Below are positions 3,930 through 33,573 of a stretch of DNA of 64,000 nt, one piece after another. Made by a program: the position numbers and the translations under genes. Under the pieces are notes generated by a model that was not told the origin of the DNA, made no database searches, and saw only the letters and a program-made list of their open reading frames with translations. The stretch's first letter is position 1. The number at the start of each line of letters is the position of its first letter. Location of the stretch: contig NC_017946.1 of NCBI RefSeq assembly GCF_000263735.1, forward strand, positions 475,348-539,347, read 5' to 3'. The DNA comes from Pyrococcus sp. ST04 (lineage in GTDB: Archaea; Methanobacteriota_B; Thermococci; Thermococcales; Thermococcaceae).

Positions 3930-4466
3930 TTACTCTAGATATCCAAGCTCTCTGGCTTTTCTTATGACCAGCTCTGCCTCCTCCTCGGGTGTCATCTTTG
4001 AGGAATCTACTATAACCTCAGGGTTTTCTGGTTCCTCGTAAACCCCATCGTAACCCGTCAACCCCTTTATTTCACCGCGCATTGCCTTCTTGTAGAGTCC
4101 CTTGGGATCCCTTTGTATCCTAACCTCCAGAGGAGCATAGACGTAGACTTCAATAAATCTCCCTATCTCCTTCCTAGCGTATTCCCTAATCCTCCTGTAT
4201 GGGGATATTAGTGAAACTATCGCTATAACACCATTCCTTGTGAGGAGCTTTGCCATGTGAATTACAATCCTATTGTGCATCTCCCTGGCTTCCTTAGAAA
4301 AACCGAGGTTTGGGTAGAGGGTCTTCCTTATCGTGTCCCCATCGAGGATCTCAACCCTGTACCCCATTTCCCTCAACATCTTTGCAAGCTTCACTGCCAA
4401 AGTAGTTTTCCCAGCACCACTGGGTCCGGTGAGCCATATTGTGAATCCTTGCTCTAGGCTTTTCAT
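3930..4466 (-). CDS. cysC: Adenylyl-sulfate (APS) kinase
   Basis: Phosphorylates APS to PAPS, the second step of sulfate activation. It is a 178-residue P-loop kinase with Walker A GPSGAGKTT at residues 14-22, DGDTIRKTLYPNLGFS following, and the family motif GLYKKAMRGEIKGLTGYDG. An in-frame ATG lies 6 bp upstream, but GGGATGG sits correctly for the ATG at 4466, and the second copy at 31090 starts at the same residue. It is about 94 percent identical in protein to that copy by eye. It has its own TATA-like element near 4500 although it lies within the sulfate operon. Confidence 0.93.
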   Translation of the reverse strand: MKSLEQGFTIWLTGPSGAGKTTLAVKLAKMLREMGYRVEILDGDTIRKTLYPNLGFSKEAREMHNRIVIHMAKLLTRNGVIAIVSLISPYRRIREYARKEIGRFIEVYVYAPLEVRIQRDPKGLYKKAMRGEIKGLTGYDGVYEEPENPEVIVDSSKMTPEEEAELVIRKARELGYLE

Positions 4467-4487
4467 GGCCATCCCATAAAAAGATAA

Positions 4488-4512
4488 GCTGACACTTTAA
4501 AACTTTAAAGGA
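4488..4512 (-). promoter_or_regulatory. Probable internal promoter for APS kinase
   Basis: On the reverse strand CTTTAAAGTTTTAAAG lies about 30-45 bp upstream of the cysC start, in the 50 bp between the phosphodiesterase stop and cysC. The second cysC copy has a comparable AT-rich TATA-like stretch (31655-31672) at a similar distance. Retention in both copies suggests a real internal promoter, but this is a motif call only. Confidence 0.45.
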
Positions 4513-4516
4513 AAGA

Positions 4517-5914
4517 CTAGAGAAGGCTCCTCCCCTTTAGGGGCTTTTCGATTCCAAACAACTTGAGGACGGTTGGTGCGAAGTCATATATTGTCAGGCT
4601 TGTAACTTTTGATTCCTCGATCCCCGGCAGGTAGAGGGAAAACACCCCGTATTCTGAGTGAACCGCGTCGTCTGGGCCTGTATCGTTCTCCCTTAGGTAG
4701 GGGGTTGGATAGCCTAGGGTTCCCGCCGCCCTCCAGTTGAGGTCGTCAAAGTACACCATCATATCCGGCCTATCTCCTTTGGCAACCGGATATATATCCT
4801 CTGGATAGAATACCCTGGTCTCCCACTTCTCCCCATCGGGCCCCCTGATTGACTTTATTCTCTCTGCAACTTCTTCTCTAACATCATCGAACTTGCTTGG
4901 TGGAACGGTTCCCTTTGGTTCCCTTCCCTTGACGTTTATGAATACCCTCGAGTAATATCCTCCCCATCCCCATGCCGTTGTTTCTTCCCACTTTACGTTC
5001 ACTTTATCTAGCCTTATTGGCCCTCCCTCCCTCGGCATGTCTTCAATCTTTAGGAGCCCTTCTTCGGCCATCCAGTGGTTTACGGCAAATGCTCCCTTCA
5101 TAGCTTTTATGCCGTGATCAGAGACTATTATGACCGCCGTTTCATCGAGATCTAGAAGCTTTAAAGTTTTGCCTATCTCCTTGTCTAGTAGTTTGTAGTA
5201 CTCGGGGATCACGTTCTCGTAAGGGTTGCCCTTGCCAGGGTAAAGATGGTGGTTCTCGTCGAAGAACTTCCAGAAGGCGTGGTGAACCCTGTCTAGGCCT
5301 ATCTCGACAAACTGGAAGTAATCCCAATCCTTCGCCTCGATCAAATACCTTATTACTTCAAACCTTTTTTTAGTCATCTCCCATATCTTGTCCCTAACTT
5401 CGTCCCTGTTCTCCTTTCTGAATACTACGTCGAATATGTACTCCCCAACTACTCTCTCTATCTCCCCCTTGAGCTCCTTGGGATACGTGTAATCAACCTC
5501 TGGACCAGGTGTTATGAAGCAACTTATTAGCCACCCGTTCACCTTCTTTGGAGGATAGCTCGGGGGTATTCCAATTAGGACTGACTTCTTTCCCTTTTCG
5601 GCGATATAATCCCACACTGCTTTTTCCTTTATCATTCTGCTGTTCGCTATCCAGATATCATTGTAGGTTCCTCTCTTCCTGTGCCTGAACCCATAAAGGC
5701 CGAGCTCTCCCGGCGTCTTTCCCGTAGCCATTGTCATCCACATGGGGATGGTTATCGCTGGTATTCCGGTTTTCATTGGGCCATATATTGACTTTTCCAA
5801 CAGCTTCTTTATGTGTGGCAGGTCATCTATAAACCTGTGGAAGAGCAGTTCGGGTGGCGCTGAATCTAGTCCGATAACGAAGACCTTCTTAACTTCCTCA
5901 AGGTTAAACTCCAT
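4517..5914 (-). CDS. Type I phosphodiesterase/nucleotide pyrophosphatase-family protein
   Basis: 465 residues of the alkaline phosphatase superfamily, nucleotide pyrophosphatase branch. D17 (VFVIGLDSAPPE) and T55 (AITIPMWMTMATGKTPGE) fit the first metal ligand and nucleophile, and VSDHGIKAMKG near residue 264 carries the second metal pair. The C-terminus DFAPTVLKLFGIEKPLKGRS is typical. There is no signal peptide, so it is likely cytosolic. Its start overlaps the DHH gene by 11 bp with GGAGGTG upstream, indicating translational coupling. Conserved position inside a sulfate-activation operon suggests a nucleotide or sulfated/phosphorylated substrate, but the substrate is unknown. Its C-terminal half recurs in the chimera at 32170-33573. 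Confidence 0.85.
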   Translation of the reverse strand: MEFNLEEVKKVFVIGLDSAPPELLFHRFIDDLPHIKKLLEKSIYGPMKTGIPAITIPMWMTMATGKTPGELGLYGFRHRKRGTYNDIWIANSRMIKEKAVWDYIAEKGKKSVLIGIPPSYPPKKVNGWLISCFITPGPEVDYTYPKELKGEIERVVGEYIFDVVFRKENRDEVRDKIWEMTKKRFEVIRYLIEAKDWDYFQFVEIGLDRVHHAFWKFFDENHHLYPGKGNPYENVIPEYYKLLDKEIGKTLKLLDLDETAVIIVSDHGIKAMKGAFAVNHWMAEEGLLKIEDMPREGGPIRLDKVNVKWEETTAWGWGGYYSRVFINVKGREPKGTVPPSKFDDVREEVAERIKSIRGPDGEKWETRVFYPEDIYPVAKGDRPDMMVYFDDLNWRAAGTLGYPTPYLRENDTGPDDAVHSEYGVFSLYLPGIEESKVTSLTIYDFAPTVLKLFGIEKPLKGRSLL

Positions 5915-6899
5915 TCCTTTTCACCTCCAAATAGCTCATTATCAAGTTGAGAACCCTTAACAGATTTTTCTTCTCGCATACGCATCCCAGGACGTCATTT
6001 TTGCCACCTGCATTCAGCCCCATGCTTATCAACTTTTCAATCAGCTCAGGAACGTTAACACTTCCCAACGCTCTGGGGGAAACCCTGAGGTAAACTTGAG
6101 AGATGCCGTGGAAGTCTTCGTTAACTACCAATGCAACATCATGCCCAAACTCCCACACGAGCTTTCTTCCCACTTTCGATATTATGTTCAGTGGACTTTT
6201 GAATCTAACAATTGCAAGTTTGCCCTTTAGAATAACTTTCCTCAAGGCTTTTTCAACTTCTCTCTCAATCCTCTCAACATTTTTTATCCATTGTTCGTAG
6301 TATAGTAGATCTTTCAACTCGTTGGAGAGAAGAACGTGGAGGGCTTCTTCAACGGCCCTTCTATCGACGAGTATGTAGTTTGAGTCGATTAGCTCAACTA
6401 ACCTTAGAGCATCTTTGCGTGAAAGTCCCTCGGCCTTCAGTAGCTCGTTGACAGTAGGAATTTCAAATGCCCTTTCCCCTAAGTCCCCTACCGCTCCAAT
6501 AGCACTCCATCCGTTCCATACATTGAAGTGTTCGGAAACGACAAACGATGCTGATGGACAGCTCTTTCCAGCCAAGGTTGGATTTATTTGAGTAACCCTT
6601 GGGTTCTTAATCCTTGGCTGAACGTGGTGATCTATGAAGAGCGTCTCCTTTGGAATTCTCTCAGCTTCCTGCGGCACGTTTAGGTCTAGCACGTAGACTC
6701 TCTCCGCTTCTTCAATTGCCCTCCAGATTCTATCATCGAAGCGGAACTCCCCTATTTGAGGGGTTACATTCTCAAAATCCTCAAGCTTTAGCGCCTTCAC
6801 CAATATGGCGGATGATGTGATGCCGTCCGTGTCCCAGTGATGGATTATCAGATGCATGTTATTAGGGCAACCTAACGGCTTATTAGCTTTGTTCCTCAT
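5904..6899 (-). CDS. DHH-family phosphoesterase, candidate PAP phosphatase
   Basis: 331 residues. The DHH-superfamily motifs are visible: HHWDTDG at residues 20-26, LDLN near 71-74 and DHH at 90-92. Family members include NrnA-like enzymes that remove the 3' phosphate from pAp. Adenosine 3',5'-bisphosphate is the by-product of PAPS-dependent sulfation, and this gene sits between the exporter and the APS kinase, so recycling of PAP is a reasonable inference. The ATG at 6899 follows the tauE stop by 2 bp and is preceded by GTGGTGGTC. A truncated version lacking the DTDG and DHH motifs forms the middle of the chimera at 32170-33573. Confidence 0.85.
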   Translation of the reverse strand: MRNKANKPLGCPNNMHLIIHHWDTDGITSSAILVKALKLEDFENVTPQIGEFRFDDRIWRAIEEAERVYVLDLNVPQEAERIPKETLFIDHHVQPRIKNPRVTQINPTLAGKSCPSASFVVSEHFNVWNGWSAIGAVGDLGERAFEIPTVNELLKAEGLSRKDALRLVELIDSNYILVDRRAVEEALHVLLSNELKDLLYYEQWIKNVERIEREVEKALRKVILKGKLAIVRFKSPLNIISKVGRKLVWEFGHDVALVVNEDFHGISQVYLRVSPRALGSVNVPELIEKLISMGLNAGGKNDVLGCVCEKKNLLRVLNLIMSYLEVKRNGV

Positions 6900-6901
6900 T
6901 T

Positions 6902-7636
6902 TCAGACCACCACTATTGCAACTCCAAGTACGAGTATTATGAAGTTAATTAACTTCCTCAGCTTCTCCTCATCCACCTTGCTGTTAACCTGAACACCAAC
7001 GTACACTCCAGGCAGGGAGCCGGCTATTAATGGTCCCACCATTCTCAAATTAACGAATCCCAGGTAGGCATAGTTAAGGAAGCTCAAAGCCGAAAGCATC
7101 AAGCCGTAGGCAATTGACACTCCTGCAACGTCTTTTGGACTTAGCCTGGCTAGGTTCACAAGGACGAACGTCACGACTACCCCAGCACCAACTGATGTAA
7201 ACTGCACGATTAAACCAACAACAAAACCAAGGAAGTATAATTGATAGGGCTTGATCTTTATTTTCGGATAAAGTCTCTCTTTGACGATGTTAAGGAAAGA
7301 GCTAGCTATCAAGGTTACTCCTAGAAATAGTGTTAGGTAGTGATTGAGGGTATCTTTGCTGAATGTTTTGAGTATTAGGAACCCTAGGCCCACTGCCGGC
7401 AGGCTGCCTAATAAAAGTCCGGCTACAAGGTTCCACTTAATTCTCCCTCTCTTCTGGTAGAGCACCAGACCAAACATCTTGGTTACACTTGCGAATAGAA
7501 GATCACTCCCTACAGCAACTAACGGCTCAACTCCCAAAAATATTAAGGAGGGCGTCATTAAGGCCCCGCCGCCTATTCCACTCAGCCCTACCAGAAACCC
7601 CACTACAAATCCAAGCAGTGGAAGCATCATTTTCAC
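6902..7636 (-). CDS. TauE/SafE-family sulfite/anion exporter
   Basis: About 244 residues with eight hydrophobic segments and the internal two-fold repeat of the family: GLSGIGGGALMTPSLIFLGVEP in the first half and FTSVGAGVVVTFVLV in the second. The family moves sulfite, sulfoacetate or related anions across the cytoplasmic membrane. It overlaps the end of sat by 4 bp and is followed directly by the DHH gene, so it belongs to the sulfate operon; sulfate uptake or export of a sulfur anion is inferred. The start could be GTG at 7636 or ATG at 7630. A diverged paralogue lies at 30343. Confidence 0.88.
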   Translation of the reverse strand: MKMMLPLLGFVVGFLVGLSGIGGGALMTPSLIFLGVEPLVAVGSDLLFASVTKMFGLVLYQKRGRIKWNLVAGLLLGSLPAVGLGFLILKTFSKDTLNHYLTLFLGVTLIASSFLNIVKERLYPKIKIKPYQLYFLGFVVGLIVQFTSVGAGVVVTFVLVNLARLSPKDVAGVSIAYGLMLSALSFLNYAYLGFVNLRMVGPLIAGSLPGVYVGVQVNSKVDEEKLRKLINFIILVLGVAIVVV

Positions 7637-8772
7637 TCTATGAACGGCTTCTCAAAGCTTCTTATAACCTCGTAAACCTCGGGCCTCATCATGTACTCTG
7701 GAGGCTTTTCTCCACTCATTATCATCTTTCTCAGCTTTGTTCCGCTTATTCTTACGTGGAACTCCTCGCTGTGAGGGCATATCTTCTCGTTGACCATGCC
7801 GCCACATTTCTTGCAGTAGAATGCTTCTCTTATGAACATTGGGGTTATTCCTAAATCGGGAAATTCATCGAAGAGATCCCAGGCCTCGTAGGGGCCGTAA
7901 TAGTTTCCTACCCCAGCGTGATCCCTCCCCACTATGAAGTGTGTTGCCCCAAAGTTCTTCCTCATTATGGCGTGGTGTATGGCCTCTCTTGGCCCAGCAT
8001 ACCTCATCTCATACCTCACAGTTGCGAGAACAGTAACGTTTTTCGGATAGTAGTGCTCGAAGAGAACTTCATAAGCCCTTATTATGACTTCATCCTTGTA
8101 ATCTCCCTTCTTCTTCTTTCCAAGTACTGGATTTATGAAGAGTCCGTCAACAAACGTCAATGCTGCCTTCTGGACATACTCATGGCCGAGATGTGGGACG
8201 TTTCTTGTCTGAAATGCAACTATCGTTTTCCAGCCTCTCTCTTTGAAGAGCACTCTGGTTTCAACAGGCCTTAGAGTGTACTTTGCGAACCTGTTGGGAA
8301 GCTCATTTAGAAGCTCTATCTCACCCCCAACCAACCACTCACCCATCGAGTACACCTTGGCAACCCCAGGATGGTTGGGATCATCGGTCTTGAAGACCTT
8401 TTTTGCAAATTCCTTTTTGTCGTATTTGTAAATCTCCTCCACATGCATTCTGGCTATGGGGAGGTCTTCGTAATACAGAAGAACTGCATCTCCCTCGTCA
8501 AATGTTTTCTCCTTAATATCAAGGACTATGGGAATTGTCCACGGAAGGTCATTGCTTAGTCTCATATTGTCAAGAACGCTTTGAAAGTCGTCACTTGTAA
8601 GGAATCCCTTAAGGGGGGAATACACACCGTGGGCTATGTTTTCTAGGTCTATGGCTCTTCCATGGTCTATTTGGACTCTAGGATACTCATGCTGTTCGCT
8701 AAGGATTCTTTCTCTAGTTCTCTCCGCAACGATTCTCCTAACGAGCTTTCCGCCGTGAGGCTTAGAGACCAT
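7633..8772 (-). CDS. sat: Sulfate adenylyltransferase (ATP sulfurylase)
   Basis: Forms APS and pyrophosphate from ATP and sulfate. 379 residues, the normal length for the monomeric archaeal/bacterial Sat type. The active-site motifs QTRN (178-181) and HLGH (184-187) are present, as is GRDHAGVGNYYGPYEA. A likely zinc-binding group CKKCGG...CPHSEEFH lies near residues 323-340. It is preceded by the small protein gene at 8799 (26 bp) and followed with a 4 bp overlap by tauE. Together with cysC it gives a full route from sulfate to PAPS. The first 70 residues are nearly duplicated in the chimera at 32170-33573. Confidence 0.95.
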   Translation of the reverse strand: MVSKPHGGKLVRRIVAERTRERILSEQHEYPRVQIDHGRAIDLENIAHGVYSPLKGFLTSDDFQSVLDNMRLSNDLPWTIPIVLDIKEKTFDEGDAVLLYYEDLPIARMHVEEIYKYDKKEFAKKVFKTDDPNHPGVAKVYSMGEWLVGGEIELLNELPNRFAKYTLRPVETRVLFKERGWKTIVAFQTRNVPHLGHEYVQKAALTFVDGLFINPVLGKKKKGDYKDEVIIRAYEVLFEHYYPKNVTVLATVRYEMRYAGPREAIHHAIMRKNFGATHFIVGRDHAGVGNYYGPYEAWDLFDEFPDLGITPMFIREAFYCKKCGGMVNEKICPHSEEFHVRISGTKLRKMIMSGEKPPEYMMRPEVYEVIRSFEKPFIE

Positions 8773-23923: not shown

Positions 23924-24787
23924 ATGGATGGGCATAAGAATATTTCAGTTATAATATGTACTAAAAATAGCGAAGAAACACTTAAAGAAACATTAGAATC
24001 TATAAAAACAGCTAAGCCATTTGAGGTAATAATCATAGATGGAGGATCTAATGACAATACCCTGAATATTGCAAGAAACTTCACTAAAAGGATTTACCAC
24101 GATAATGGACGAGGATTAGGATATGCCCGATTTTTGGGTGCAATCTTAGCCAAAGGGGAGTACGTTGCATACATAGATTCGGACGTAATAATACCTGCAG
24201 AAGATTTTTTTGATGTCCTAATTGAAGAGATGAATAGAAATTGTTGGGTCGGAATTCACGCTCAGATAAAAACCTCCAAGCTCAGGAATTATTGGGAAAG
24301 GGGTATGGATTTTTATTTCCGAAATAAGTTCAATATTCCCGGTGAAAAAACTGAACTTCCTATGATGGCCTGTGTTATAAAACGCGAGATTATCATTGAC
24401 ATTGGATTTGACGTTCATTTTAAAGGTGCTGGTGAAGACCAAGATTTCTGGAGAAGGGTACATATGAAGGGATATAAGTTTGGAGTCTCCTATAGAAGGT
24501 GGGTATTTCACCATCACAGGTCCTCATTTAAAGAATTCATAAAACAGAGGATCTGGTATGGAAAAGGAAACATTATGTTATTTTCGAAGTATCATGACTG
24601 GAAGAAATTGATGAGCCCCATCGGAGCGGTAGTCGGTGGAATTCTTTTAATTCTCAGACACAAAGAATTTAAATTTCTCCCATTTTTTTTCTTGTGGGGA
24701 GTGAGTGTTGGGATTGGAGAGATCATTGGTATTCTTGAATTGATAACTAAATCTGTGCGCCTGAGGAGGGGAAGGAATCATGGATAA
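23924..24787 (+). CDS. Family 2 glycosyltransferase with C-terminal membrane segments
   Basis: 287 residues. ISVIICTKNSEETLKETLES and EVIIIDGGSNDNTLNIA form the N-terminal GT-A domain; YIDSDVIIPAEDF is the DxD region and GAGEDQDFWRRVHMKGYKFG is the conserved ED motif. The last 60 residues contain one or two hydrophobic segments (GAVVGGILLILRH, LPFFFLWGVSVGIGEIIG), so it is probably attached to the cytoplasmic membrane. It overlaps the next gene by 8 bp. Confidence 0.83.
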   Translation: MDGHKNISVIICTKNSEETLKETLESIKTAKPFEVIIIDGGSNDNTLNIARNFTKRIYHDNGRGLGYARFLGAILAKGEYVAYIDSDVIIPAEDFFDVLIEEMNRNCWVGIHAQIKTSKLRNYWERGMDFYFRNKFNIPGEKTELPMMACVIKREIIIDIGFDVHFKGAGEDQDFWRRVHMKGYKFGVSYRRWVFHHHRSSFKEFIKQRIWYGKGNIMLFSKYHDWKKLMSPIGAVVGGILLILRHKEFKFLPFFFLWGVSVGIGEIIGILELITKSVRLRRGRNHG

Positions 24788-26129
24788 CATTAATGTCATT
24801 GTAATTGTGCTGGATACTCTCAGAAGGGATTACGGGCTGTTTTTAAAGAATTCTATGGAGCAATTAGGTTTTGTATACTATGACAATGCCATTTCAACCT
24901 CTTCGTGGACATTGCCCTCACATGCATCTATTTTTACTGGGTTGTATCCTGCTTTCCATGGTGTTCACGGTGGAACCAATAAGGATATCACTTCCCTACG
25001 TCTTGGAAAATCATTACCCTTACTATCTCGTGATCTCTTTGAGTTAGGCTATGAAACTATCCTTGTGAGTGCTAATCCATTTATAACGCCGAATTTTGGA
25101 TTTAGATATTTTAATAAGTTTCATAACATATATCGGACTCTGGGATGGCTATCTGAAAATGAGAAAAATGAACTACACAGGCTAAAGTTGAAATATAAGG
25201 TTCAGTCAAGGGTTGACTTAATCCATGCTCTTCTTAGTACTGGTCATGTGCGTATCCTGTTAAAATTGATCGTTTCCTATTCTCTTAACAGAATAGGCAT
25301 TATAGATAGAGATTGGCCGTTGGACAAGGGAGTGAAAAAAGCATTATCTGTTTTTAAGTCTATGAGACCTTCAAAAATTCCAAGGTTTATTTTTGTTAAT
25401 CTTATGGAAGCTCATGAGCCTTATCTCAAAAATGATCCTTTCAAGCAAGTTCGAAAGCATAATCTAAAAACTAATTCGAAGTTGCCTGAGAAGTACTTGT
25501 CCCTATGGAGGCATGCCTACAGAATGGAGGTCCAATACTTAAAAAATAAATTGCTTGAGATCCTGAGAATGCTGAAGAGTAATGATCTTTTTGACTCTTC
25601 GTTGATTATCATTACCAGCGATCATGGCCAACTCCTTGGAGAATATAACCGTATAGGTCATGGAGTATTCCTGTATGACGAACTCATTAGAGTCCCACTC
25701 TTTATTCATTATCCCATTGAGCAGTTAGATGTAGAATTTGACAAAGGTTCTCGTTTTGATATGACTAAGTATTTTAGTCTTATTAAATTACGGAAGTTAA
25801 TACTCGATGCTGTTAAACATGGATACGTTGATGAAGCTACTCTTTTCACCGATACTGTCTTCTCGGAGAATTATGGATCATCTATAAATGAACCCCCTAA
25901 GACAGAGGAGGAAAAAAGAAATCTGGAACAGCTTAATAAATATCGGATTGCTATTTACTATAATGGTTTTAAAGGCATATTTAACGTCAATGATTGGAAG
26001 TTTGAAGAAGTAAATAATATGGCATCTCTGGATATTTCTTATGATGAGGCACTTAAGGGTATGAGAAAGGCTGTCCTTAACTTCCTCAAGCTTTCCATTG
26101 CCAACAAAAAGATCAAAAAGCTAGAGTAA
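24780..26129 (+). CDS. Alkaline-phosphatase-superfamily (sulfatase-like) enzyme
   Basis: 449 residues, full-length paralogue of the partial gene at 2-937 and of 28197. D12 (VIVIVLDTLRRDYG) is the first metal ligand, T44 in SSWTLPSHASIFTGLYP is at the nucleophile position, and ITSDHGQLLGEYNRIGHG near residue 280 binds the second metal. Thr instead of Cys/Ser argues against formylglycine sulfatase chemistry; phosphohydrolase or phospho-transfer (for example of a glycan substituent) is at least as likely. There is no signal peptide. It is embedded in a glycosyltransferase operon with 8 bp overlap upstream and 15 bp spacing downstream. Confidence 0.85.
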   Translation: MDNINVIVIVLDTLRRDYGLFLKNSMEQLGFVYYDNAISTSSWTLPSHASIFTGLYPAFHGVHGGTNKDITSLRLGKSLPLLSRDLFELGYETILVSANPFITPNFGFRYFNKFHNIYRTLGWLSENEKNELHRLKLKYKVQSRVDLIHALLSTGHVRILLKLIVSYSLNRIGIIDRDWPLDKGVKKALSVFKSMRPSKIPRFIFVNLMEAHEPYLKNDPFKQVRKHNLKTNSKLPEKYLSLWRHAYRMEVQYLKNKLLEILRMLKSNDLFDSSLIIITSDHGQLLGEYNRIGHGVFLYDELIRVPLFIHYPIEQLDVEFDKGSRFDMTKYFSLIKLRKLILDAVKHGYVDEATLFTDTVFSENYGSSINEPPKTEEEKRNLEQLNKYRIAIYYNGFKGIFNVNDWKFEEVNNMASLDISYDEALKGMRKAVLNFLKLSIANKKIKKLE

Positions 26130-27152: not shown

Positions 27153-28267
27153 GAACTTTGAGCGTTATCTTAAATATTATTAGGAGTTTGGTTGGTATAC
27201 TGAAATACACAAATAATCCTATTGAGTGTATTCTTAATTACATAGGAGCAAAACAAACGTTGAAGTTATCCTGTAAATCAGGACTGCGTATTAGTAGCTT
27301 GTCTAAGTCTGACTACCGTTGGCTTGGAACATTGTCTAACGTTTGTCTTCTTGATAAGATGGGATATATTAGCCATCTTAGTGAGGATACTATTGTTGTA
27401 AATGGTATAAAAATCCCAATAAGAGATATGTGGATTGTTAATACTTACTTCTTGCTTATAACCAAGTTACGTGGCAATATTGGAGTAAATCCTGAAACTA
27501 ATCGTCCGTATGTGGAGTTTCACTTTAAAGATAGGCTTGTTCATTTTGATCTTCCTGACTATAGAAACGGATGGGGAGTTTTAGTGGATACTTATATCAA
27601 TCAAGATTATAATGTCTTTGATGTATCTAACAAGACAGTTGTAGACGTTGGAGCTTATATTGGGGACACTGCAGTGTTCTTTGCTCTCAATGGAGCAAAA
27701 AGAGTATACAGCTTTGAACCCCATCCAATCTTATATCAAATAGCCCAATATAACATCAAGATTAATAAGTTGAGTAACGTTGTTAGACTCAAGAATGCAG
27801 GTGTGGGAGGGCATACTGGTCAGATGTTGTTAGAAACAGATGAAGCTCATCTTGACTCTTCTGGATATGTATCTAAATTTTATCTGCCAAACACTAAACA
27901 CTTTAATGTTCCACTTTTTGATATCGCGGAACTCTTTGATGTGTTGGACTCCGTTGATATTCTTAAGGTAGATTGTGAAGGATGTGAGTTTGAAGTACTA
28001 AGAAGATTGTATTCGACAGGCAAACTCGAGGATATTAACGACGGACTTGTTATGGAGGTTCATGAAGGTGAGGGTCTAGGGAGTATTAGTGAAATATTGG
28101 ATATCTTGAGTAAAGCAGGATTTAGATGTAAAATTTATAAATCCTTTAGAAATGGTGCTCTAAACCTGTACTTAATTAAAGCATGGAGGGGGTGGGATGA
28201 GTACTCTTCCCAATATTGTGCTGATAGTACTAGATACTCTTCGAGAGGACTACTCTACGTCACTTGA
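27149..28267 (+). CDS. FkbM-family SAM-dependent methyltransferase
   Basis: About 370 residues. The SAM-binding motif VVDVGAYIGDTAVFFALNGA near residues 166-185 is followed by VYSFEPHPILY (acidic ribose-binding residue) and ILKVDCEGCEFEVL, which is diagnostic of FkbM-type sugar O-methyltransferases. The start may be GTG at 27149 or, with GGGGTGAG as binding site, TTG at 27158. The final 24 residues overlap the next gene by 71 bp and look poorly constrained, so the natural stop may have been lost when the downstream gene was joined. Probable role: methylating a sugar of the surface glycan. Confidence 0.8.
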   Translation: MRTLSVILNIIRSLVGILKYTNNPIECILNYIGAKQTLKLSCKSGLRISSLSKSDYRWLGTLSNVCLLDKMGYISHLSEDTIVVNGIKIPIRDMWIVNTYFLLITKLRGNIGVNPETNRPYVEFHFKDRLVHFDLPDYRNGWGVLVDTYINQDYNVFDVSNKTVVDVGAYIGDTAVFFALNGAKRVYSFEPHPILYQIAQYNIKINKLSNVVRLKNAGVGGHTGQMLLETDEAHLDSSGYVSKFYLPNTKHFNVPLFDIAELFDVLDSVDILKVDCEGCEFEVLRRLYSTGKLEDINDGLVMEVHEGEGLGSISEILDILSKAGFRCKIYKSFRNGALNLYLIKAWRGWDEYSSQYCADSTRYSSRGLLYVT

Positions 28268-29567
28268 TAGTATCTTAGTAAAAGAAGGATTCTGTAAATT
28301 GCCTAATTGCATCTCTCCTTCCCCATGGACAATTCCTTCTCATGTTTCAATGCTTTCAGGGGAATATCCAAGTGTTCATGGCACACACGAAACTCCAGTA
28401 AAAAAAGCAGATGAGGTGCGTGTTTTACAGAGAATAAAGTTACTAAACTATGTTCTTAAAAAGAAGGGATACAGAACTTATTTGTTTACTTCTAATCCAT
28501 ATGTACATCCTCTTTTTGGTTTTTCTCCCTTTGATATAGTGATTGAGAGGTTTTTAGGTAATAAAAAAGATATCCTAACAATCTCAGAAAGGGCAGTTAT
28601 AAAAGATCTACGACATTCATATGGAAAAGTTAGAACATTTGTTAAGTTACTCAAACAGGGACACTTTTCAATACTTATGAAGCTTCCAATCCATTACTTA
28701 TTGCATGCGTTTTATACCCTCTACAAGATATCCCCTTTTTATGCGATTGACATGGGTACTAGAAAGCTAATTAGGGATATTTCCAAAGTATCGTTAAATC
28801 CTCCCTTCTTTTTATTGGTCAATATTATGGAGATGCATGAACCTTACTTAAAAGATCAAAATAAAGACATTAATCTTAAAAATCTTCGTGCCAACTTTAT
28901 TCCTGAAATGCTTAATAACATTGATCTTGATAGCATTAGGGATGAGTACTTAAGACGTTCTAAACAACTTGGGGAGTACATAAGTCAATTGTTAGGTATC
29001 CTCAAAGAAAAGATGTTATTTGACAATTCAGTAATTATAATTACGAGTGATCATGGGCAACTCTTGGGGGAATATGGTAAGATTGGACATGGCACGTTTT
29101 TATATGATGAACTTTTAAAGGTACCATTTTTTATAAAAATCCCTGGCTGGGACTGCACAATAAACTTAGAACAGAACAAATGGCTGAGCCTAACCAGGGT
29201 ATGGGATATTGTGACTACTTTAGTCTACTTTCAGAATATGAACAATATAGATATTGAAAAGTTTATATTTGGGTTATATTCTGATGTCGTTTTCTCAGAA
29301 TCTTTCGGAATAGCCCAAAACATTAGCAATATTCCTGAAGCTGATAAAGTAAGAATGGAAAAACATCGTATTGCAATTTATCACGGGCCTTACAAGGGTA
29401 TATACAACGTGGATGATAATGTTCTTGAATTTATTAAGCCTTATGACCCTAATGCTGAGATAACTGAAGACGTCAAGATAATGCTCATTAAGGATGCAAA
29501 AAAATTCCTAAAACAGGCAAAACTAAAAAGTGCAATAAGAAAGATAAATATTAGAAAAAACTTCTGA
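28197..29567 (+). CDS. Alkaline-phosphatase-superfamily (sulfatase-like) enzyme
   Basis: 456 residues, paralogue of 24780. D13 (IVLIVLDTLREDYS), T45 (SPWTIPSHVSMLSGEYP) and ITSDHGQLLGEYGKIGHG near residue 285 give the metal site and nucleophile. The C-terminal half is especially similar to the partial gene at the window start. GGGGGTGGG precedes the ATG. It is the last gene of the forward glycan operon; the next sequence is a decayed reverse flippase, the same junction seen at 937/943-2370. Confidence 0.85.
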   Translation: MSTLPNIVLIVLDTLREDYSTSLDSILVKEGFCKLPNCISPSPWTIPSHVSMLSGEYPSVHGTHETPVKKADEVRVLQRIKLLNYVLKKKGYRTYLFTSNPYVHPLFGFSPFDIVIERFLGNKKDILTISERAVIKDLRHSYGKVRTFVKLLKQGHFSILMKLPIHYLLHAFYTLYKISPFYAIDMGTRKLIRDISKVSLNPPFFLLVNIMEMHEPYLKDQNKDINLKNLRANFIPEMLNNIDLDSIRDEYLRRSKQLGEYISQLLGILKEKMLFDNSVIIITSDHGQLLGEYGKIGHGTFLYDELLKVPFFIKIPGWDCTINLEQNKWLSLTRVWDIVTTLVYFQNMNNIDIEKFIFGLYSDVVFSESFGIAQNISNIPEADKVRMEKHRIAIYHGPYKGIYNVDDNVLEFIKPYDPNAEITEDVKIMLIKDAKKFLKQAKLKSAIRKINIRKNF

Positions 29568-29589: not shown

Positions 29590-29964
29590 TATTTTTATCA
29601 ATTTTAAGTTTATTCCCAACTTTTTTTCCATTCCATTAGCAGCTCAATATACTCTCTATCTATACTTTACTAACCAGAAAAACAAGCAGAAAGTAAATTC
29701 CCAAAATGCCATCAGAACTGGCACTGTATACCAGATATTGGTTAGCCTTAAATTCAATGCTTTTAACCCTCCTAACAAGACAAAACTAATAGCTAAAGGC
29801 TTCATATAGTTCCAGCTAACAGGGATGAATTTCGGTTTTTGAATAGAGCATAGAGCTGGGAAAACAATTGTCGGATAAAGAAACGCGGCAGAGTTCAAGA
29901 ATATTGGGATTAACCGTGCAAGTGGTGCTGCGGCATTATAGCTTGCCTCACCCATAGGGCTCAC
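29590..29964 (-). pseudogene. Decayed second copy of the flippase
   Basis: Reads as two pieces of the flippase at 2370-3902. NAAAPLARLIPIFLNSAAFL with YPTIV matches the middle (NAASPLARLIPIFLNSATFL), then a deletion of about 140 codons jumps to PVSWNYMKPLAISFVLLGGL near the C-terminus. The last 25 codons (matching DREDVELLLAIEKKLGID of the intact copy) are shifted out of frame. It cannot make a transporter. Confidence 0.85.
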
Positions 29965-30074: not shown

Positions 30075-30122
30075 AACTTATTTCGAAAAGTTGGAGAAAA
30101 CTTTTGCATTAGATAAAAGCAA

Positions 30123-30136
30123 AGGTTTATATAGTT
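30123..30136 (+). promoter_or_regulatory. TATA box of the candidate structured RNA
   Basis: GGTTTATATAGTT is one of the best archaeal TATA boxes in the window. Its centre at about 30130 predicts transcription to begin near 30155, exactly where the 15 bp terminal helix of the candidate RNA starts. Confidence 0.6.
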
Positions 30137-30154: not shown

Positions 30155-30315
30155 TGAGGAGCGTCGTGCAGGGGAGGTTGAAGCGGAAGCTTTACCCCGA
30201 GCAAGTCTAACTCAGGAGCAGTTCTATGACCCGTGAGGGAAGTAGGGCTGTGATCTGGGACAAGGTTTGCGAGGAGTGAAGCTTCACATCTGCCTCTTCC
30301 GTGCGGCGCTCCTCA
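30155..30315 (+). ncRNA. Candidate structured non-coding RNA, about 161 nt
   Basis: No protein frame fits this GC-rich segment. Bases 30155-30169 pair with 30301-30315 in an unbroken 15 bp helix with three G-U pairs, which indicates RNA folding rather than a DNA palindrome. Inside, AAGC-GGAA-GCTT (30181-30192) is a hairpin with a GNRA tetraloop enclosed by GGGG (30171-30174) and CCCC (30195-30198). A second arm around CCC-GTGA-GGG (30230-30239, another GNRA loop) is extended by about ten further pairs, several of them G-U, between CAGTTCTAT and AGTAGGGCTG. GTGAAGCTTCAC adds a third hairpin. A TATA box is correctly placed. I cannot assign it to a known family. Confidence 0.65.
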
Positions 30316-30325
30316 CCATTCTAAT

Positions 30326-30342: not shown

Positions 30343-31080
30343 TTATCTCCCGTTTAAAAGCGTAAACAGGCCGATGAGTAGGATAATGAAGTTTATAACC
30401 TTCTTCAGCCGCTCCTTATCAGCTCTTGCGTTCACATGGGTTCCAAAATAAACGCCCGGAACCGTTCCCAAAATAAGCGCCCCCGCCAGTTGATAGTCAA
30501 CGCTTCCCATGCTCGCGTAACTTAGGAAACTGAGGGCGGAAAGCGCTAGGCCGTAGAAAATAGTCGTCCCCACAACATTCCGCGGGTTTATCTTGGCCAC
30601 ATTCATCAGGGAGAAGCTTATGATAACTCCAGCACCAACGGATGTGAAATGGACAGTCAGGCCGACGATGAAGCCGAGCAGGTAAACGTAGGCCCACCTC
30701 GGCCTTACTGGAATGCTAATTTCACCCCTCAGAAGGCTCAGCGTCGCCGTAACGATAAGAATGATCCCGAGGACGAGTGTTAGATGCCGATTGAGCAGCT
30801 CCTTCGGCAGGTGCCTCACGATGTAGCCCCCCACAAGCACGGCAGGCACACTCCCGGCCAGGAGGCGGAATGCTATGTCCGTCCTCACGTGTCCCCGCCT
30901 GCCATGGAAGAAAACCCCAAAAACCCTCGTCACCGTGGCGTATAGCAAATCGGTTCCTACCGCGGTCAGCGGCTCAACGCCCAAGAATATGAGGGCGGGC
31001 GTCATCAAAGCTCCTCCACCCACTCCGGTAAGGCCAACCAAAAATCCCACGACGAAGCCAAGGAGGATAAAGGCTAGCAT
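30343..31080 (-). CDS. TauE/SafE-family anion exporter, second copy
   Basis: 245 residues with the same eight-helix, two-repeat layout as the gene at 6902 (GLTGVGGGALMTPALIFLGV and FTSVGAGVIISFSLM), but clearly diverged from it in protein sequence. Codon use is much more GC-rich than in the first copy. It lies directly behind the second APS kinase (9 bp), whereas in the first cluster tauE follows sat. The frame is intact and it is probably functional. The anion transported is not known. Confidence 0.87.
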   Translation of the reverse strand: MLAFILLGFVVGFLVGLTGVGGGALMTPALIFLGVEPLTAVGTDLLYATVTRVFGVFFHGRRGHVRTDIAFRLLAGSVPAVLVGGYIVRHLPKELLNRHLTLVLGIILIVTATLSLLRGEISIPVRPRWAYVYLLGFIVGLTVHFTSVGAGVIISFSLMNVAKINPRNVVGTTIFYGLALSALSFLSYASMGSVDYQLAGALILGTVPGVYFGTHVNARADKERLKKVINFIILLIGLFTLLNGR

Positions 31081-31998: not shown

Positions 31999-32047
31999 GT
32001 AGTTCACCCATACGAACATAGTTTTTAAGTCTCTCCCTAAAACATCA

Positions 32048-32106
32048 TAACGATGATGATCCCACCCTTGGCTGATGTTATGATGAGGTCTCGTGGTTCT
32101 GACTCG
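32048..32106 (+). ncRNA. C/D box sRNA (2'-O-methylation guide)
   Basis: All four boxes are perfect and correctly spaced: C box ATGATGA (32053-32059), 12 nt guide TCCCACCCTTGG, D' box CTGA (32072-32075), 4 nt spacer, C' box ATGATGA (32080-32086), 12 nt guide GGTCTCGTGGTT, D box CTGA (32099-32102). Such RNAs direct 2'-O-methylation through L7Ae, Nop5 and fibrillarin. By the box+5 rule the targets would be the fifth base of CCAAGGGTGGGA (D' guide) and of AACCACGAGACC (D guide); I cannot locate these in rRNA or tRNA from memory. A TTTTTAAGT TATA-like element lies about 30 bp upstream. Confidence 0.82.
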
Positions 32107-32169: not shown

Positions 32170-33573
32170 TTAAACGATGCTCCTTCCCCTGAGTGGCTTC
32201 CTCATCCCGAAGAGCTTCAGCACCGTCGGTGCGAAGTCGTATATCGTCAGCTGTATCCTTTTTGCCTCGTCCATACCGGGCAGGTATAGGGAGAACACGC
32301 CGTATTCCGCATGCACGGCATCATCTGGTCCAGTGTCGTTCTCCTGAAGATACGGTGTCTCATAACCTAATGTCCCGGCAGCCCTCCAGTTCAGATCATC
32401 GAGGTAGACTATCATATCTGGCTTGTCGCCCTTGGCGACGGGATATATCTCCTCCGGATAGAACACCTTAGTATCCCACTTCTCGCCGTTCGGACCCCTG
32501 ATGCTCTTTATAAGCTCCGCAACCTCATCTCTGACCTCCTGGAACTTCTCGGGCGGAACTACACCGTGCGGCTCCCTCCCCTTGACGTTGATGAACACAC
32601 GGGAGTAGTAGCCGCCCCAAGCCCATGCAATCGTCTCGTTCCACTTCACTTTCACCTTGTCGAGCCTTACTGGCCCTTCCCTCGGCGGGTTCTCGACCTT
32701 AAGGAGTCCCTCCTCGATGAGCCACTGGTTTATGGCAAAGGCACCCTTCATGGCCTTTATCCCGTGGTCCCTCAGCTTCTTGATTATGGTCGGGACACTT
32801 ATCCTATCGGTTTCCTTCGGTGAGACCCGGAAGTAGAGCTGGGCCTTTCCGTGGAAGTTGTGGTTCACGACGACCGCACCCCGGTAGCCCTTCTCCCAGA
32901 CGAGCTTTCTGGCAACTTTTGAGATTATGTTGAAGGGGCTCTCGAACTCGACTATAGCGAAGCCGTTTCTCTCCTCAACGCTCGATATGGCTTCTTCAAT
33001 GGTCTCCTTTGTTGCCTCCACCTTCCTGACCCACGGTTCGTATTCGAGCAATTCTTTGGGCTCATGGCCGAGGAGGACGTGAAGGGCTTCCTCAACTGCC
33101 TTTCTATCCATCACAATGTAGTTCGAGTCAATCAGCTCGATGAGCCTCAAGGTGTCTTCCCTTGAAAGTCCCTCCGCCTTTAGAAGCTCCTCGACGCGGG
33201 GTACCTCGAGGGCCCTCTTACTCATGTCCCCCATGGCACCGAGGGCGCTCCAGGCATTCCAGATGCCGAAATACTCCGAGACGACCAGGGAGGCTGAAGG
33301 GTAATGCTTTCCTTCAAGGGCTGGATTTACCTGCCTAACCTTCAGGTTCTTAATCCTCGGCTGCATATTATCTAAAACGCTCTGGAAGTCGTCGCTCGTT
33401 AGAAAGCCTTTTAGGGGCGAATAGACTCCGTGGGCTATGTTTTCAAGGTCTATGGCTCTGCCATGGTCTATCTGAACGGACGGATATTCGTGCCGCTCGC
33501 TAAGTATCCTCTCGCGGGTTCGCTCGACCACTATCCGGCGTATAAGCTTGCCGCCGTGGGGCTTTGAGACCAT
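32170..33573 (-). pseudogene. Chimeric open frame: Sat N-terminus + DHH middle + phosphodiesterase C-terminus
   Basis: A single uninterrupted 467-codon frame made of three gene pieces. Residues 1-70 match Sat 1-70, nearly identical to the first copy up to SVLDNM. Residues 71 to about 268 match the DHH phosphoesterase from QPRIKN onward. Residues from about 269 (DHGIKAMKGA) match the C-terminal 200 residues of the phosphodiesterase. Lost are the Sat QTRN/HLGH active site, the DHH DTDG and DHH motifs, and the phosphodiesterase nucleophile region. The joins lie near 33363 and 32769. No known activity can survive, yet there is no stop. Codon use is GC-rich like the adjacent cysC and tauE copies. 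Confidence 0.85.

Follow-up and report, generated by a model that had tools for sequence, protein, structure and literature searches.

Structured ncRNA classes of archaea beyond the guide RNAs, RNase P, and SRP RNA are few and mostly blank with regard to function. Closest to the RNA analyzed here are the Hgc RNAs (HgcC, HgcF, HgcG) and SscA (= sRk33), likewise GC-rich stand-alone ncRNAs of Thermococcales, whose function is mostly unknown. These families have been reported in several Thermococcales (PMC3124441, PMC5316973, PMC4247193). Also structured thermococcal ncRNAs are sRk48/sRk52 and sRkB/sRkC of P. abyssi, which are about 130-340 nt long, mostly carry a promoter consensus, and are repetitive and related to OrfB (IS200/605, IS607) sequences (PMC3124441).

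The window, that is, the whole stretch of 64,000 nt of Pyrococcus sp. ST04 that was analyzed, contains a 161-nt segment (Table 1) that is almost certainly a member of a structured RNA family. Judged by sequence comparison, this family matches no known family and is new; its general kind is that of the small structured ncRNAs.

Table 1. Coordinates of the RNA gene, its predicted elements, and the adjoining gene in the window.
Feature	Position	Strand	Remark
Upstream conserved block ATTTCGAA	30080..30087	+	Outer part of the conserved promoter region; consensus ATTTC.A (45 aligned upstream regions)
RNA-gene-specific upstream element TTTTGCATTAGATAAAAGCAAA, imperfect palindrome	30102..30123	+	Probable regulator/activator site (predicted)
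TATA box TTTATATAG	30126..30134	+	Starts 29 nt before the first paired base
ncRNA gene, 161 nt	30155..30315	+	Transcription start probably G30156 or T30155, from TATA spacing
P1 closing helix, 5' strand	30155..30169	+	First five bases UGAGG nearly invariant
P1 closing helix, 3' strand	30301..30315	+	CCUCA nearly invariant
P1b 5' strand, continues P1	30171..30177	+	Consensus helix 2
P1b 3' strand	30292..30299	+	Consensus helix 2
Arm A, UGAAGC-GGAA-GCUUUA, GNRA tetraloop (GAAA in most relatives)	30179..30194	+	Helix 3, 95.5% of cells paired
Arm B, long with internal loops, tip CCC-GUGA-GGG in the window copy	30201..30270	+	Helices 4-6
Arm C hairpin GAGUGAAGCUUCACAUC; relatives GAGYGRAACUUCACUC	30274..30290	+	Helix 7
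Pyrimidine/T-rich tract CCATTCTAA directly 3' of the RNA; relatives CTATTCT	30316..30324	+	Candidate termination region
TauE/SafE sulfite exporter family gene, convergent with the RNA	30343..31080	-	Stop codon 28 nt from the RNA 3' end; context only

Fold of the segment

The fold energy of the segment was -96.3 kcal/mol, compared with a mean of -56.5 kcal/mol (sd 4.45) for dinucleotide shuffles (z = -8.94), and none of 200 shuffles folded as low. The preliminary description, made from the sequence alone, had reported 15 closing pairs, three of them G-U, two arms with GGAA and GTGA loops, and a third hairpin in a segment without a reading frame, and all of these features are present (GTGA loop, 30233-30236). 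No ORF of at least 60 aa lies inside the segment. The sole short frame in the window copy has 18 codons, is leaderless, and begins 1 base before the RNA; we rejected it as a coding sequence, because such frames range from 5 to 59 codons across the copies, keep neither start codon nor frame, and differ in reading frame between clades.

Homologues and distribution

The window's own genome holds one copy of the RNA. In blastn searches, ten further Thermococcaceae genomes yielded relatives with 67-72% identity, almost all of which were full length. A first covariance model, built from these relatives, found copies in all six Thermococcaceae genera, and a second model, built on 44 copies, found the RNA in 40 of 94 Thermococcaceae genomes (~40%; E 1e-9 to 3e-38). 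The genomes split sharply into those with and those without the RNA; one of the 40 carriers (G063) has a shortened copy, and a single weak hit beyond the 40 (G080) turned out to be a remnant. Within the window's own genus, only one of nine genomes carries the RNA when searched to E 10, and the covariance-model search was negative in all 21 other genomes of the phylum. As far as tested by these sequence searches, the family is confined to Thermococcaceae. Most carriers have one copy, and the length ranges from about 155 to 181 nt.

In cmscan searches against Rfam 15, the window segment had no match, either at the gathering threshold or with E relaxed to 10, and no match fell on the RNA in 14 homologue loci at E up to 5. 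This agrees with the preliminary description, which could not place the segment among RNase P, SRP, C/D, or H/ACA RNAs. It had left a choice between a known GC-rich Thermococcales ncRNA and a new one; since the RNA lies outside Rfam, the second half of that choice was right and the first did not hold. A C/D box sRNA (RUGAUGA and CUGA boxes) was rejected for want of any Rfam C/D hit on the RNA. We likewise rejected an H/ACA sRNA (3' ANA), as the 3' end CUCCUCA is paired in P1 and no Rfam H/ACA hit was obtained. The window's only Rfam hit above threshold was an sR48 (RF01132) C/D RNA at 32046-32104 on the + strand (48.3 bits). A literature search found no paper describing the RNA; its scope did not extend to the supplementary tables of the Thermococcus transcriptomes PMC4247193 and PMC5316973, the latter including the T. 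onnurineus ncRNA lists, in which the RNA may already stand as an unnamed intergenic transcript.

Conserved structure

Homologues with compensating changes, which the preliminary description had proposed to look for, are plentiful. When 45 copies were aligned with the covariance model, 39 of the 57 base pairs changed on both sides, a number equaled by none of 500 shuffles, and there were 329 double-change cells compared with 126 in shuffles; kinship can inflate such shuffle-based counts, but the slid controls, which preserve kinship, were still far below, with 40-46% of cells paired compared with 86.9%. Double-side changes occurred in ten pairs of P1 and in 14 of the 15 pairs of upper arm B. 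In a MAFFT alignment that was not fitted to structure, the four-arm consensus had 88.7% of its cells paired, and 30 of 48 pairs changed on both sides (shuffles, 20.5; slid controls, 11-18); the counts from either alignment include a central part that is uncertain between clades. Across the 45 copies, G-U cells far outnumbered A-C cells (404 vs 112 overall; 139 vs 21 in P1), which assigns the functional RNA to the + strand.

P1 forms a helix of 15-18 bp across the family and holds the invariant ends. The GNRA loop of arm A is kept in most copies, and one copy swaps a stem G-C for C-G. Arms A and C, the core, can alternatively pair arm-to-arm as a rod, and in most copies the rod and the branched fold differ little in energy. 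As an outlier, the window copy favors the rod: at 37°C, folding it to minimum energy gives one irregular rod, which beats the branched fold by 10.5 kcal/mol (by 2.6 kcal/mol at 85°C). The branched fold, as drawn in the preliminary description, is the one preferred by the majority of homologues, and about 96% of cells are paired in arm A compared with about 87% in the competing rod helix. In terms of these modeled energies, the alternative may reflect genuine switching or simply follow from arms that are nearly palindromic. We inspected the RNA by eye for a kink-turn or K-loop as bound by L7Ae and saw no clear consensus kink-turn.

One reading of this conservation is a trans antisense regulator that acts on mRNAs of the glycan/sulfate islands described below, for example via the terminal CUCCUCA or the loop of arm C. 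The RNA 3' end resembles an anti-Shine-Dalgarno sequence, hardly any variation is seen in the terminal UGAGG/CCUCA or in much of arm C, and many described archaeal sRNAs act by pairing. However, the invariant ends are locked in the P1 helix, and unpaired stretches are few and short; we regard antisense action as unlikely. Nearly all conserved residues are found at the ends of helices, in the GNRA loop, or in short loops, both internal and hairpin. Because of this placement, the lack of any long unpaired stretch, and the differing neighbors, we favor an RNA that acts in trans with a bound protein, a reading to which we give an even chance from the sequence evidence.

Promoter and upstream element

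By automatic matching, a TATA box starts 28-29 nt before the RNA in 42 of the 45 copies. The exceptions are L022 (27 nt), L061, where a different site was matched, and L065, which has no TATA box. The last copy (L065:8009-8165, G026) also has a broken terminal pair and is probably a recent pseudogene. The preliminary description had noted the TATA box of the window copy correctly, but at a distance of about 25 bp, whereas we found 29 nt. The upstream DNA is conserved along with the RNA (45 upstream regions aligned), and this co-conservation and the fixed TATA spacing support the earlier view that the RNA is independently promoted. A T-rich tract 3' of the RNA was seen across the copies.

For the window copy and most copies from the largest genus, the element TTTTGCNNTAAATAAAAGCAAA is found 23 bp upstream of the TATA box. 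Most of the remaining copies with a recognizable element carry its left part 33-34 bp upstream of this box. This shift of 10 bp is one helical turn and would leave the element on the same DNA face, as expected for a protein site. The full upstream element, allowing up to two mismatches, had 26 matches in the 94 genomes, of which 22 were at RNA copies and none were in genomes without the RNA. We therefore rejected a regulon shared through this element, which is almost private to the RNA gene. That the RNA gene has a promoter to itself, including an upstream element specific to this gene, is a well-supported prediction from these comparisons.

Genomic neighborhood

Pfam searches of the window identified TauE, APS kinase, glycosyltransferases, sulfatase-fold proteins, and an FkbM methyltransferase beside the RNA. 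Within the island upstream of the RNA, two sulfatase-fold (PF00884) proteins (24780-26129 and 28197-29567, + strand) are interspersed among the glycosyltransferases. The immediate upstream neighbor is a 102-aa fragment related to polysaccharide flippases (29656-29964, - strand; cluster c11), which is probably a remnant. On the other side, a 467-aa ORF (32170-33573, - strand) has the look of a chimera that deletions in a sulfate locus have produced: its start matches the PUA-like domain of ATP sulfurylase, its middle is similar to the DHH-family protein, and its end is a phosphodiesterase C-terminus. The window also holds an intact PAPS locus (3930-8772) with an intact sat gene (7633-8772). The earlier phrase 'rearranged sulfate locus' thus describes the window genome correctly, and family-wide the home of the RNA is glycan/sulfation islands. 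Surface-glycan and sulfate-activation genes surround most copies of the family. The glycan-related neighbors are an AglB-type oligosaccharyltransferase (18 loci), a sugar nucleotidyltransferase (26), and an NDP-sugar epimerase (23), and the sulfate-related or other neighbors are ATP sulfurylase (21), a DHH-family protein (22), a phosphodiesterase family protein (19), APS kinase (13), and TauE (11); the names AglB, nucleotidyltransferase, epimerase, and DHH are our reading of the sequences, and Pfam confirms sat.

The end of a neighboring gene lies within about 65 nt of the RNA in most loci, which would suit a cis-acting leader, attenuator, or terminator for that gene. However, this gene is usually convergent with the RNA, which then does not belong to the leader, and it is not always the same gene (epimerase, nucleotidyltransferase, ATPase, TauE, or oxidoreductase). 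Because of both facts, the RNA is not a leader of its neighbor. It also has its own TATA box at fixed spacing, and a cis element, including a riboswitch, is very improbable. A stand-alone RNA gene is well supported by the sequence comparisons, which predict a + strand transcript with boundaries joined by P1, a four-arm fold, its own promoter, and a home in glycan islands.

ATP sulfurylase (sat, PF01747) is present in 38 of the 40 RNA carriers and in 21 of the 54 non-carriers (Fisher p = 6e-9; 2e-5 in high-quality genomes). Stratification by genus (CMH) gave p of about 1e-7, and 3e-4 in high-quality genomes. The exceptions are two genomes with the RNA and without sat (G036, G078) and 21 with sat and without the RNA. 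In about ten genomes, the RNA is more than 100 kb from sat; these genomes are not independent of each other, because the distances are mostly similar. In the same genome comparison, AglB-like proteins showed no association with the presence of the RNA, and AglB was rejected as a correlated gene. The sat association is a lead rather than proof, because the RNA and sat often share an island and the species are not independent; shared island loss alone may explain it.

In a rival reading, the RNA, though structured, would have some accessory role of no relevance to glycans and would be a passenger in their islands, found there only through a co-inherited neighborhood. It persists where sat has been lost (G036 and G078), the flanking genes vary on both sides, and the RNA is dispensable and was repeatedly lost, as described below. 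Against this, the RNA remains in glycan islands despite rearrangements and at varying positions relative to AglB, and its co-occurrence with sat extends to genomes in which they are not linked. We consider such a passenger role rather unlikely. The reading that we prefer, a role in surface-glycan/sulfation physiology, is suggested by the neighborhood and the co-occurrence; the narrower link of the RNA to glycan sulfation is tentative, and on this genomic evidence we would sooner doubt than assert it.

Inheritance, loss, and duplication

In G016, which has no RNA, the gene order is the same and the AglB and nucleotidyltransferase genes are only about 10 bp apart. G021 retains, at that same junction, the promoter together with a 3' portion of the RNA. 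Truncated or deleted copies were also found in G060, G080, and G063. Since remnants and empty junctions sit at the same positions, we infer that the family is old in Thermococcaceae and was repeatedly lost, and since several lineages carry only decayed remnants, that the RNA is dispensable. In the RNA tree, the largest genus and the window copy are mostly apart from the other genera; the window copy branches inside the largest genus in this tree, which has no support values. As judged from the sequences, transfer of the RNA into the window genome is possible.

Several genomes carry duplicates. The two copies of G042 (L021:7928-8086 and L022:7925-8083), 28 kb apart, are identical over 159 nt and have clearly different promoters and flanks; the sequences suggest a gene conversion limited to the RNA gene. 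L019, L020, and L024 (G025, G038, G040) contain a tandem diverged pair at ~7920-8402, each copy with its own promoter, and the upstream copies of these pairs form their own subfamily. On the G025 chromosome, the pair occupies C1:1723922-1724084 and 1724242-1724397 (minus strand). L049 (G028) looks like a fusion of such a pair, with the promoter of one copy and the body of the other.

The identical copies with different flanks in G042, the tandem copies in three genomes, and the conserved complementary ends would fit a miniature inverted-repeat mobile element (MITE) or transposon end, with P1 as the terminal inverted repeats. However, most genomes have a single copy, compensating changes run all along the arms, and the RNA is absent from viral and plasmid collections at the sensitivity used. 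Moreover, the promoter is co-conserved, the RNA tree largely follows the genera, and remnants occupy orthologous positions. The mobile-element reading is largely refuted, and its probability is minimal. The preliminary description had asked whether the segment might be a piece of a protein gene or a transposon end, and we found neither. A TnpB/OrfB-associated RNA was also rejected: an OrfB-like cluster (c30) is near few copies only, on the strand opposite to the RNA in L017, and most copies have no adjoining OrfB.

Proposed function

The best explanation of the whole is a stand-alone, non-essential RNA that acts in trans, is probably protein-bound, and belongs to surface-glycan/sulfation physiology, and we judge this combined reading to be evenly balanced between right and wrong. 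The RNA would be transcribed from its dedicated promoter as an independent, stable ncRNA, which a factor binding the upstream element would switch on or off. Bound by a protein, the RNA would then act in trans and serve surface-glycan/sulfation physiology. In a more speculative and quite improbable form of this model, the RNA core would switch between the branched and rod folds and, with its protein and a dedicated transcription factor, control the sulfation or variation of the glycan coat. If true, this would be the first ncRNA tied to the control of archaeal N-glycans or their sulfation within the literature searched. With ~45 copies, strong covariation, a recognizable promoter element, and a consistent neighborhood, the family offers a lead on RNA in archaeal cell-surface biology.

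Comparison with known RNAs

Like the RNA described here, C/D and H/ACA guides are small structured RNAs of Thermococcales and often intergenic; unlike them, this RNA has a long closing helix and four arms, and no Rfam guide model matches it. Riboswitches and leaders of sulfur metabolism resemble it in their position near sulfate-assimilation genes, their multi-arm fold, and their GNRA loop, whereas this RNA has its own promoter, is mostly convergent with the next gene, and lies outside any leader. Unlike the Hgc RNAs and SscA, it is missing in all eight further genomes of the window's genus and has no Rfam match. In contrast to the repetitive sRk48/sRk52 and sRkB/sRkC group, it has one copy in most genomes and is associated with glycan islands.
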